Shown here: positions 39,540 to 42,386 of the stretch, piece after piece | Layout: every line of letters begins with the position of its first letter | How positions within the stretch are numbered: the first letter of the stretch is position 1 | Assembly: GCF_020905375.1 (NCBI RefSeq) | Contig: NZ_JAJJBU010000029.1 | Location: forward strand, 1-64,000 | Length of the DNA stretch: 64,000 bases | Reading direction: 5' to 3' | Origin: Arthrobacter cryoconiti | GTDB lineage: Bacteria > Actinomycetota > Actinomycetes > Actinomycetales > Micrococcaceae | Translations under genes and position numbers: made by a program | Notes under the pieces: model-generated | Database searches by the model: none | What the model was told of the DNA's origin: nothing | What the model saw: only the letters and a program-made list of their open reading frames with translations

Positions 39540-39607
39540 GCCCTTTGCACGCCTAACGCTGTTTGGGCGCCTAGTGTTGCCAGCCCATCCCGGCTAGCAG
39601 TGTTGGG

Positions 39608-39636
39608 AACGGGTCCGGTTGAATATGGGCCCGTTT
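39608..39636 (+). terminator. First terminator after glpK
   Basis: AACGGGTCC (39608-39616) pairs with GGGCCCGTT (39627-39635) with one G-U pair and a 10-nt loop; the arm ends in TTT. Confidence 0.6.
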
Positions 39637-39656
39637 GAAAAAGGCCGAGCTATGCC

Positions 39657-39691
39657 AAGGTGGGGCCCCACACGTTGTGGGGCCCCACCTT
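39657..39691. terminator. Second, strong hairpin after glpK
   Basis: Perfect 15-bp stem: left arm 39657-39671, loop ACGTT, right arm 39677-39691 (AAGGTGGGGCCCCAC and its complement). No long U tract follows. It isolates leuS from the glp operon. Confidence 0.75.
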
Positions 39692-39742
39692 AGTGTGTTC
39701 TGGCTTTAGGGGACACCTTAATAAAGGGGATTCCGAATGCGC

Positions 39743-39748
39743 TAAAGT
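39743..39748 (+). promoter_or_regulatory. -10 box of the leuS leader promoter
   Basis: TAAAGT (TANNNT) is followed by exactly 6 nt and ATG at 39755, the first codon of the leader ORF. The mRNA would start on this ATG. No strong -35 element is visible. Confidence 0.45.
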
Positions 39749-39754
39749 AGGAGA

Positions 39755-39781
39755 ATGGAAATGAGGCTCCTCCTTAGCTAG
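39755..39781 (+). CDS. Leucine leader peptide of leuS (MEMRLLLS)
   Basis: Mini-ORF ATG GAA ATG AGG CTC CTC CTT AGC TAG, with three consecutive Leu codons. Two modes of translation are possible: leaderless from 39755, or from the inner ATG at 39761 using AGGAG at 39749-39753 if transcription starts further upstream. Both give the same Leu run and stop. It is followed by alternative RNA pairings ending in a terminator, the arrangement of classical ribosome-mediated attenuation. The Leu run ahead of a leucyl-tRNA synthetase gene makes the logic clear, although expression has not been shown. Confidence 0.7.
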   Translation: MEMRLLLS

Positions 39782-39800
39782 CCGCAACGAAGAGTTGCGG
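39782..39800 (+). promoter_or_regulatory. First hairpin of the leuS attenuator and competing antiterminator
   Basis: CCGCAAC (39782-39788) pairs with GTTGCGG (39794-39800). The alternative helix is CGAAGAG (39788-39794) with CTCTGTCG (39811-39818), seven pairs with one bulge. The alternative uses the hairpin 1 loop and encloses the left arm of the terminator, so it excludes both hairpin 1 and the terminator. Confidence 0.55.
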
Positions 39801-39802
39801 CC

Positions 39803-39828
39803 GCCCCTTGCTCTGTCGAGGGGCTTTT
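39803..39828 (+). terminator. Attenuator terminator upstream of leuS
   Basis: GCCCCT (39803-39808) pairs with AGGGGC (39819-39824) around a 10-nt loop and is followed by TTTT. It lies 29 bp ahead of the leuS start, so it must be read through for expression. Confidence 0.7.
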
Positions 39829-39857
39829 GTGTGTAAAGAGCGAGGTGCAAGAAGCCA

Positions 39858-42386
39858 ATGATGAATGAAGAGGCAGGGTACGTGAGCGTGCAGTCCCACA
39901 CTGATGAGAACAGCGAAGAGGGCGTCTACAATTTCGCCAGGATGGAAGCCAAATGGCCAGCCGTCTGGGATGACCTTAAAGTCTTCACCCCTCTCGACGA
40001 TGGTTCTAAGGAACGTCGCTACGTCCTTGACATGTTCCCTTACCCGTCCGGCGACCTTCACATGGGCCATGCTGAGGCTTTCGCCATGGGCGACGTCGTC
40101 TCACGCTATTGGCGCCAACTCGGTTACGACGTTCTGCACCCGATCGGTTGGGACTCGTTTGGCTTGCCTGCCGAAAACGCGGCCATCAAGCGCAATGCCC
40201 ACCCGAGTGAGTGGACGTATGCCAACATCGACACTCAGGCGGAGTCGTTTAAGCGCTACGCCATTTCTGTGGATTGGTCCCGGCGTTTGCAGACCTCGGA
40301 TCCTGAGTACTATCGGTGGACTCAGTGGCTATTCAAGCGGTTTTACGAACGCGGATTGGCTTACCGGAAAGATTCCCCTGTTAATTGGTGTCCGCAGGAC
40401 CAAACAGTATTGGCCAATGAGCAGGTGGTTAACGGTACTTGTGAGCGTTGCGGGGCCATCGTCACAAAGAAGTCTTTGAACCAGTGGTACTTCAAGATCA
40501 CCGATTACGCTGACCGCCTTTTGGAAGACATGGATGCGCTCAAGGGTCTGTGGCCCGATCGCGTCCTCGCAATGCAGCGGAACTGGATCGGCCGCTCCGA
40601 GGGTGCCCATGTGAGTTTCGTTATTGAGGCAGCTAGCGACGAAAAGCCGCAACGGGAACTGACCGTTTTTACCACCCGCCCAGACACGCTCTATGGAGCT
40701 ACCTTTTTTGTCGTAGCTGCGGACTCTCCCCTTGCTCTTGATCTGGTCACGGGTGAAAATGCTGAGGCTCTCAGTGACTACCGTGAACAGGTTAAGGCTC
40801 TGAGTGACATAGAGCGCCAGTCCACGGAGCGCCCGAAGACAGGAGTATTTACCGGCCGTTTCGCGATAAATCCACTCACTGGCGAAAAGCTACCCGTTTG
40901 GGCCGCTGACTATGTCCTTGCTGATTACGGCACAGGAGCCATCATGGCTGTGCCTGCCCATGACCAGCGTGACCTTGATTTTGCTAAGGCATTTGGTCTA
41001 CCTGTGCGTTCAGTCGTCGACGCTGGAAGTTCTGATCCGGAGGCGACGGGCATTGCCACGGTGGGGGAGGGCACCCTCATCAATTCTGGCGAGCTGAATG
41101 GTCTTTCGAAATCTGAAGCCATCCCTGCCGCTATTGAAATCTTAGAAAAGTTGGGCACAGGTGAGAAGTTTGTGAACTTCCGCCTGCGCGACTGGCTGCT
41201 GTCTCGGCAACGTTTTTGGGGCACACCTATTCCGATTATCCATTGCCCTGACTGTGGTGAGGTTCCGGTTCCGGATGATCAGCTTCCCGTTCGGCTTCCA
41301 GAGAACCTGCGCGGGGAGGATCTCTCGCCGAAGGGCACATCACCGTTGGCCGCAGCATCAGATTGGGTCAATGTTGACTGCCCCAAGTGTGGTGGAGCAG
41401 CTAAGCGTGATACCGACACGATGGATACCTTCGTTGACTCTTCGTGGTATTTTCTGCGGTTTGTTTCGCCGCAGTTTACCGAAGGTCCTTTCGACCCCGA
41501 AAAGGTCAACGACTGGATGCCAGTGGGCCAGTATGTCGGCGGTGTTGAGCACGCCATTTTGCACCTGCTCTACGCGCGCTTCTTTACGAAGGTCATCCAT
41601 GACATGGGCATGCTGGAGGCCACTGAGCCATTTAGCCGCCTCCTTAATCAGGGTCAGGTGCTCAACGGCGGTAAAGCCATGAGTAAGTCCTTGGGTAATG
41701 GGGTGGACCTCGGCGCGCAATTGGACCGTTTTGGTGTCGACGCCGTGCGCCTGACAATGGTTTTTGCCGGACCCCCTGAGGACGACGTCGACTGGGCGGA
41801 TGTTTCGCCGTCGGGCTCGGCTAAGTTCCTTGCCCGGGCCTGGCGGTTAGGCCAAGATGTGACCAGCGAACCCGGAACTGCTGCGACTTCGGGAGATCGC
41901 GTCCTGCGTTCTCTGACTCACCGCTGTGTCCACGAGGCTAAAGCTTTGTTGGAAGGCCACAAGTTCAATGTGACGGTGGCCAAAATTATGGAGCTGGTCA
42001 ATGCCACCCGCAAGGTGATTGATACGGGTGCTGGGGCGGGAGATCCAGCAGTTCGCGAGGCCACGGAAGCTGTAGCTGTCTTGCTGAGCCTGTTTGCCCC
42101 CTATACAGCTGAGGACATGTGGCAGGCTCTAGGACACCCGGCCTCCGTAGCAAACGCCGGGTTCCCTGCCGTTGATGAGAGTTTGCTGGTGCAGGCGAGC
42201 ATCACAGCCATTGTCCAGGTGGCGGGCAAGGTCCGTGACCGTCTGGAGGTCTCTCCGAATATCACTGAGGACCAGCTACGCGAGCTTGCGCTGGGATCGG
42301 CTGCTGTGCAGAAGGTCTTGGATGGCCGCGAGATCCGCACGGTGGTGGTGCGGGCGCCTAAGCTGGTCAATATCGTTCCGGCGTAG
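39858..42386 (+). CDS. leuS: Leucine--tRNA ligase
   Basis: Class I synthetase of up to 842 residues that charges tRNA-Leu and edits misactivated amino acids. The HIGH motif reads HMGH (68-71), KMSKS reads KAMSKS (606-611); the editing domain lies between, with TTRPDTLYG and the conserved [17 protein letters not shown] region. Start is uncertain: ATG at 39858, or GTG at 39882 (VSVQ), which better matches family N-termini and has AAGAGG upstream. Expression is likely governed by the leucine attenuator just upstream. Confidence 0.97.

Follow-up and report, generated by a model that had tools for sequence, protein, structure and literature searches.

A putative leucine attenuator without a detectable antiterminator precedes leuS in Arthrobacter cryoconiti and other Actinomycetota

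Attenuators of leuS, the gene of leucyl-tRNA synthetase, were described in Streptomyces with antiterminator hairpins (Seliverstov et al. 2005, PMC1262725), and RNA sequencing (RNA-seq) in S. lividans TK24 found the leader of LeuL2, the peptide MRAVRLLLSEPR, to be leaderless (PMC8079986, in the portion of the paper available). As far as the accessible text of these sources goes, the Streptomyces element stands upstream of leuS and combines a short leader peptide containing three leucines (LLL), a leaderless start and a hairpin followed by a uridine stretch. We analyzed a stretch of 64,000 nucleotides (nt) from Arthrobacter cryoconiti (contig NZ_JAJJBU010000029.1, positions 1 to 64,000; the whole stretch is called the window here), in which a module of this kind precedes leuS. 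Its place upstream of leuS, its short open reading frame (ORF) with leucine codons and the matches of a covariance model of its family to LeuL2 elements indicate that it is related to the Streptomyces type, and a leuS attenuator as such is a kind of element already known from that genus. The family to which the window belongs differs in two respects: it usually has eight codons and a stop directly before the first hairpin (H1), whereas in the MRAVRLLLSEPR loci the leader stop lies inside the H1 5' arm, and no antiterminator was found in it, in contrast to the antiterminator hairpins of the Streptomyces description (PMC1262725). As far as our searches show, the features that are new within the literature searched are the spread over Micrococcaceae and other Actinomycetota, a single-codon rule, constant spacings and the absence of any antiterminator that we could find. 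In that literature, much of it available in part and with most subscription journals outside its coverage, leuS attenuators came up only in PMC1262725 and PMC8079986; the term matches in the visible portions of PMC3896937, PMC9413887 and PMC11995493 were the author name Leustek or a remark on gene neighbors, and a search for Arthrobacter together with leader peptide turned up nothing related.

Several lines of evidence suggest that the leader in the window controls leuS by ribosome-mediated transcription attenuation in response to leucine, a reading that we regard as highly probable; to our explanation as a whole, such an attenuator working through direct blocking of the terminator by a nearby ribosome and without an antiterminator, we assign a probability of roughly 0.62. 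All of the elements lie on the plus strand. The promoter (39738-39748) is TGCGC followed by the -10 hexamer TAAAGT (39743-39748), without a conserved -35, and six bases separate the hexamer from ATG 39755, the first codon of the putatively leaderless leader ORF MEMRLLLS (39755-39781; ATG GAA ATG AGG CTC CTC CTT AGC TAG, with the stop TAG at 39779-39781). The penultimate sense codon, CTT at 39773-39775, is the predicted regulatory leucine codon, invariant in relatives. H1, an 8-bp hairpin at 39781-39801 identified by folding, covariation and offset, begins 8 nt past the first base of this codon; its core arms are 39782-39788 and 39794-39800, to which the fold adds the pair G39781-C39801. After a gap of 1 nt comes a predicted intrinsic terminator with an 8-bp stem and a 6-nt loop (39803-39824; arms 39803-39810 and 39817-39824), directly followed by the U-rich tail TTTTGTGTGT (39825-39834). 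A previous interpretation made from the letters of the window, which we call the sequence-only reading, had proposed a leucine attenuator here, and the conserved module and invariant leucine codon described below support it; every coordinate that it gave for MEMRLLLS, H1 and TAAAGT is correct, and it placed the terminator rightly, drawing the stem too short at 39803-39808/39819-39824.

These elements are real and not due to chance. The segment 39755-39834 folds with a z of -2.53 relative to shuffles (3 of 200 equally good), and H1 and the terminator, each taken singly, reach -14.3 and -13.2 kcal/mol. Random sequence totaling 4 Mb (one strand, dinucleotide make-up of the window) contained three occurrences of TANNNT followed at 6 or 7 nt by a short ORF with a penultimate CTT or CTA, and none of the full combination with H1 and an adjacent terminator. 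A covariance model run against the window's genome found one copy, at leuS (E 9.4e-17), the next match being at chance level (E 7.9).

The module is widespread. We found leuS in 23/23 genus genomes and 148/148 family genomes searched, seven genomes being in both sets, and compared 126 family loci, from all 23 genomes of the genus and 103 of the family's 141 others (genera g13, g14, g15, g22 and g29 left out), together with 80 named loci, the nearest from Arthrobacter silviterrae (89%) and four having under ~120 bases upstream. Detection relied on TANNNT 5-7 nt before ATG or GTG, at least one leucine codon, and a pattern of C-run, G-run and TT. The module so found at 130 of the 206 loci (103/126 family, 27/80 named) reads TGCG-N-TANNNT, 6-7 nt, ATG or GTG opening a usually eight-codon ORF (typically MxxxLLLx), H1, 0-4 nt, and terminator; the distance from the leader to leuS varies. 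Named carriers include Arthrobacter, Pseudarthrobacter, Glutamicibacter, Microlunatus, Nocardioides, Marmoricola, Nonomuraea, Thermoactinospora and Actinomadura. Counted by genus, 20 of 27 have the module, 19 of them in every genome examined (23/23 in the window's genus) and one in 5/6, while the other seven lack it throughout, so that presence is close to all-or-none at this level.

The covariance model, R1, which combines 49 family loci with five named Arthrobacter, Nocardioides and Marmoricola loci, was searched through the phylum with strict filters and hit 18 of 296 genomes at E <= 0.01, with 19 matches. By tblastn, leuS lies downstream of 17 of the 19, and TIGR00396 leuS was the best family in all ten of these that were scanned, the proteins being partial and nine of them below the curated cut-off. 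One match (L234) ends, by eye, in an apparent leuS N terminus, and one (L237, genome G214, E 0.0048) places the module before leuA, the 2-isopropylmalate synthase gene (NF002086, E 8e-229): on the minus strand of this distant phylum member, the putatively leaderless MSQNLLLT leader runs from ~1589 to 1563 and is followed by H1, an adjacent terminator, and leuA from 1488 down. Eight of the hit genomes (E 6.8e-6 to 5.0e-4) belong to one genus, with MRAVRLLLSEPR in seven and MRAVRLLLSGPR, which has one residue changed, in the eighth.

The leader peptides vary, and one codon in them does not. We examined 108 distinct loci with 6-8 codons, defining the penultimate sense codon by the position of the stop and not by its meaning; these loci had been selected for leucine anywhere in the peptide, not for its place. 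At this anchor position leucine stands in 107 of the 108 (CTT 86, CTA 18, CTG 2, CTC 1), the only other residue being Pro in L073, whose contig has homopolymer stretches. The minor codons CTT and CTA make up 104 of the 107, and their shares of leucine codons in seven window genes are 14.8% and 8.0%. The two codons before the anchor encode leucine in 81 and 87 loci. Within the genus, the middle codon of the leucine run is replaced by Pro (L010, L019, L026), Arg (L023) or Phe (L012) in 5 of 23 members, and peptides such as MVLRLALR, MVVPPVLR and MNPKRNLV are found in other genera. The run of leucine codons, for which the sequence-only reading expected conservation, is not invariant, whereas the last leucine codon is; judging from these variants, a single minor leucine codon seems to do the sensing and the run to be optional. 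The bias toward minor codons agrees with attenuation theory, in which, according to the part of that work available, codon choice tunes sensitivity (PMC1183508). Leaders with a single CTA leucine codon, resembling MNPKRNLV, occur in four loci of one genus (L064, L077, L081, L083) and in Glutamicibacter (L128); H1 in these loci is smaller and its position is displaced by a few nt.

The same counts bear on whether leucine is sensed at all. The leader peptide could be translated without sensing leucine, with a terminator of partial efficiency doing no more than reduce leuS expression; 7 of 27 genera do without the module, and changed leader codons had no effect in S. coelicolor ilvB (PMC1262725). 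Such an arrangement would hardly be expected to hold leucine at the anchor so strictly, and in a minor codon, at leaders that stand before leuS or leuA, and we consider it very improbable.

The leuS leader mRNA is very probably leaderless, judging by the spacing between promoter and start. For this we used 89 distinct leaders picked by LLL without any promoter requirement, taking the start nearest eight codons where a locus offered several in frame; the set includes a few stray LLL frames (e.g., L049). TANNNT lies 6 nt (69 leaders) or 7 nt before the start codon in 84 of the 89, an SD (Shine-Dalgarno)-like tetramer is present in only 15, and the start codon is GTG in 19. This geometry is that of a leaderless leader transcript and supports the suggestion, already made in the sequence-only reading, that the peptide is translated from a leaderless mRNA. 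The same reading had allowed standard initiation at the inner ATG via AGGAG, which is not the conserved start: we rejected the inner ATG since it is the outer ATG 39755 that opens the eight-codon frame conserved in relatives, and since the purines are variable. Because the six bases between the -10 box and the start vary even inside the genus, the AGGAG of the window is most simply taken for a chance occurrence. Among 127 distinct promoters, all chosen for TANNNT 6 or 7 nt before the start, the TGCG ahead of the -10 box is conserved at T 82%, G 84%, C 74% and G 85%, and no -35 emerges, conservation staying at or below 46% in every column between -34 and -6 of the hexamer. The usual extended -10 is TGN, from which the conserved TGCG differs.

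Both hairpins are conserved as structures. Pairing percentages refer to an alignment, A1, of 54 rows hand-picked from 95 candidates and mostly with a short H1. On A1, 92.1% of H1 cells are paired, with 5 of 7 counted pairs changed on both sides and the base of the hairpin its best-conserved portion; the terminator reaches 95.6% over the 54 sequences, and the two together 93.9%, as opposed to 39-54% in slid versions. The mean H1 stem score over 120 loci is 6.93 vs. 2.08 in shuffled segments. Scanned over offsets 3-21 from the first base of the leucine codon, H1 begins at +8 in 88 of 109 short leaders, with +3, +6, +7, +11 or +12 as the start in the remainder, and at +7 or +8 in all 12 longer leaders. 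Its other end is also held close: with the 5' end fixed at +8/+9 and the whole interval searched, 106 of 112 loci have the 3' end 0-4 nt ahead of the terminator, where 28.6 would be expected if it were uniformly placed (earlier measurements had sought it only within 6 nt of the terminator). H1 itself is 17-60 nt long, the linear distance from leucine codon to terminator is 29-70 nt with a standard deviation (sd) of 10.8 (113 loci), and the spacer between H1 and terminator has an sd of 0.81 within the 0-5 nt to which the search limited it. The gap from stop to terminator is at least 20 nt in 97 of 104 short leaders and under 15 nt in two. Downstream of the terminator stem, 110 of 119 loci have T at +8 and G at +9, counting one base further on where the stem has no closing C, and this conserved T-G may be a release or pause point.

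Some loci depart from this plan. With its 3' end sought within 6 nt of the terminator, H1 is weak in 7 of 124 loci and has no room in 4; in three species of one genus (L037, L049, L050; leader MAYFLG) it is absent, and the terminator itself lies at +8 from the leucine codon, starting within the stop codon, while the two other examined members of that genus (L040, L055) keep H1. In L048 the stop TAG has become CAG and the leader continues through H1 (MRAILLLSQPPSVRTNG), like the longer MRAVRLLLSEPR-type leaders.

The sequence-only reading had explained the two hairpins by classical three-state attenuation, in which a stalled ribosome prevents H1 and so releases a strand that can act as antiterminator by pairing with the terminator region, and had drawn an alternative helix, 39788-39794/39811-39818, for this role. 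That helix can be drawn as described and belongs to the best fold of 39786-39818, before the terminator 3' arm emerges, and the antiterminator hairpins reported for Streptomyces leuS (PMC1262725) would also be in keeping with the scheme. It is energetically weak, however, at -2.6 kcal/mol taken singly, and 50 of 200 shuffles fold as well as the intermediate that contains it. On A1, 40.8% of its cells are paired vs. 38.0% in shuffles (27 of 500 reach it) and 32-45% in slid versions; one of five measures, its covariation score, is reached by only 7 of 500 shuffles, but does not beat the version slid by -2. We rejected it as a conserved element because its pairing is near shuffled and slid levels. 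H1 and the terminator covary or stay paired. A wider search of 120 loci for complementarity between H1 past its first four bases and the terminator loop, the 5' arm plus loop, or the 3' arm plus tail gave nothing above shuffles (p<0.05 in 0.8%, 0% and 2.5% of the loci; mean z -0.15, -0.42 and -0.37, respectively). In one window fold the 3' arm of H1, once freed, paired with the U tail, a candidate that we set aside since, judged by eye, relatives with other arms, e.g., L069, do not offer this pairing.

Base-pair probabilities were then computed for three ribosome states at 124 of the 130 loci (six have no parsed terminator; the three H1-less loci were excluded from the ribosome states), by equilibrium folding in which the ribosome was assumed to cover 13 nt, counted from the start of the codon in its A site. 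The terminator has a probability >0.9 in 117/124 free transcripts, in 118/121 with the ribosome at the last leucine codon (1.00 in the window) and in 115/120 when the ribosome occupies the stop codon. Its 5' arm is sequestered to a similar degree in each state before the 3' arm appears (means 0.31, 0.29 and 0.32). Masking the H1 base with a ribosome footprint thus generally leaves the terminator intact. A mutually exclusive antiterminator, the hallmark of a classical attenuator, is neither conserved, enriched nor thermodynamically competitive at these loci, and some species have no H1; a classical three-state mechanism is in our view unlikely.

Blocking of the terminator by proximity of a ribosome at the last leucine codon is the explanation that we favor, tentatively, at slightly under even odds for this step taken by itself. 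Transcription would start at the A of ATG 39755, and a ribosome would load on the bare 5' end and read the eight codons. With charged tRNA-Leu plentiful, it would clear the last leucine codon, unwind H1, end at TAG and depart; the terminator, 21 nt past the stop, would then form and most transcripts would end. With charged tRNA-Leu scarce, the ribosome would wait with CTT 39773 in the A site. H1, which begins 8 nt ahead, would lie at about the point where the mRNA enters the ribosome and could remain folded. Since H1 abuts the terminator, its folding would leave only ~10 nt of the 30-nt path from codon to terminator; so placed, the ribosome would directly block the terminator and leuS would be transcribed, with no competing antiterminator required. 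It is from the arrangement of the leader that we infer the leucine response, its direction and the proximity blocking. In an Escherichia coli test system (PMC4824070, in the part of the paper available), a ribosome within ~27 nt repressed a terminator, and the stretch of free RNA that must separate the hairpin from the A site is put at a minimum of 10-15 nt. The ~10-nt path with H1 folded falls within this repression zone, and a ribosome at the stop is mostly at least 20 nt from the terminator; because of this difference the expected sign would result without a third helix. More speculative, and in our estimate distinctly short of even odds, is the generalization to a phylum-wide antiterminator-free attenuator in which the folded H1 is a ruler that sets the waiting ribosome against the terminator and, once the codon is read, is unwound, releasing the terminator.

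The main rival to proximity blocking gives H1 a different part, that of helping the terminator by promoting termination or pausing: on reaching the last leucine codon, a ribosome would melt the H1 base and termination would fail, again without an antiterminator. H1 abuts the terminator, its base is its best-conserved portion, the offset of 8-9 nt would set its first bases at the edge of the assumed footprint, and the tail T-G could mark a pause or release point, all in agreement with such a role; three species nevertheless manage without H1, and the terminator folds well alone, which leaves this rather unlikely, if the most serious of the alternatives. H1 as a hairpin-stabilized pause of RNA polymerase (RNAP), a candidate compared by eye, gave no exact fit.

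Several points count against proximity blocking and the broader explanation built on it. The footprint edge falls on the first H1 bases, so that sequence alone cannot separate blocking from H1 melting, and a footprint of the assumed size may melt up to four H1 pairs at the leucine codon, weakening the idea of a folded H1. Where species lack H1, the terminator would also be covered by a ribosome standing on the stop codon, and the sign there would depend on release speed. The floor of ~18-20 nt between stop and terminator may perhaps reflect just the smallest hairpin, and where a leucine run exists, starvation could stall the ribosome at an earlier leucine codon, farther from H1. The ribosome-free transcripts of 7/124 loci do not reach a terminator probability >0.9 (0.00 in L007 and L208), and a kinetic antiterminator would be compatible with these equilibrium-folding results. 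Finally, the module was not detected at 23/126 family loci or in 7/27 genera.

Among more distant systems, the leaderless polycysteine attenuators of mycobacteria, reportedly described by Canestrari et al. in 2020, share the leaderless short ORF of regulatory codons and differ in using cysteine, not leucine. A paper citing Canestrari et al. 2020 names, in its accessible part, cysteine genes as regulated by translation attenuation. A coupled ribosome near a terminator prevents its folding in E. coli pyrBI also (PMC10135430; PMC4824070; both as far as the available portions go), but pyrBI senses UTP via RNAP pausing whereas the leuS leader would sense a leucine codon, with a hairpin setting the distance. 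Attenuators of the trp, his and leu type likewise have a leader peptide with regulatory codons ahead of a terminator; the leuS leader differs from them in its probable leaderlessness, its one obligatory codon and the lack of any competing antiterminator that we could find. The LEU element of actinobacterial leuA has a leader ORF with a leucine run as well, but is a pseudoknot in which the leucine run pairs with the leuA SD, whereas the leuS leader precedes a terminator (PMC1262725). With the present loci, leuS attenuation would range beyond Streptomyces into most members of a large family of soil bacteria and into other actinomycetes, and their natural variants, which reveal as constants a leaderless start, one minor leucine codon and two fixed spacings, argue against the customary assumption of an antiterminator. 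They also offer a small, cheaply testable case in which a ribosome on a leaderless mRNA may control RNA polymerase.

The leuS gene of the window (39882-42386, plus strand) encodes a leucyl-tRNA synthetase (TIGR00396 leuS_bact, E 1.6e-288). Its longest ORF opens at ATG 39858, which is lost in some genus members; because this ATG is not kept across the genus and an in-frame GTGAG is present in 94 of 128 readable loci (78 of the 206 were not readable), GTG 39882 is the probable start. The absence of T-box features noted in the sequence-only reading is borne out by Rfam, which gave no match in the window at the gathering score and, up to E 10 in 39600-39900, seven chance-level matches, none of them a T-box. 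Upstream, a 16-bp hairpin at 39657-39691 lies between glpK and the leuS promoter and may insulate leuS from the glp genes. T-G tails similar to that of the leuS terminator follow this hairpin and another hairpin of the genome (L220); the tail T-G may therefore be a general feature and not one specific to leuS.

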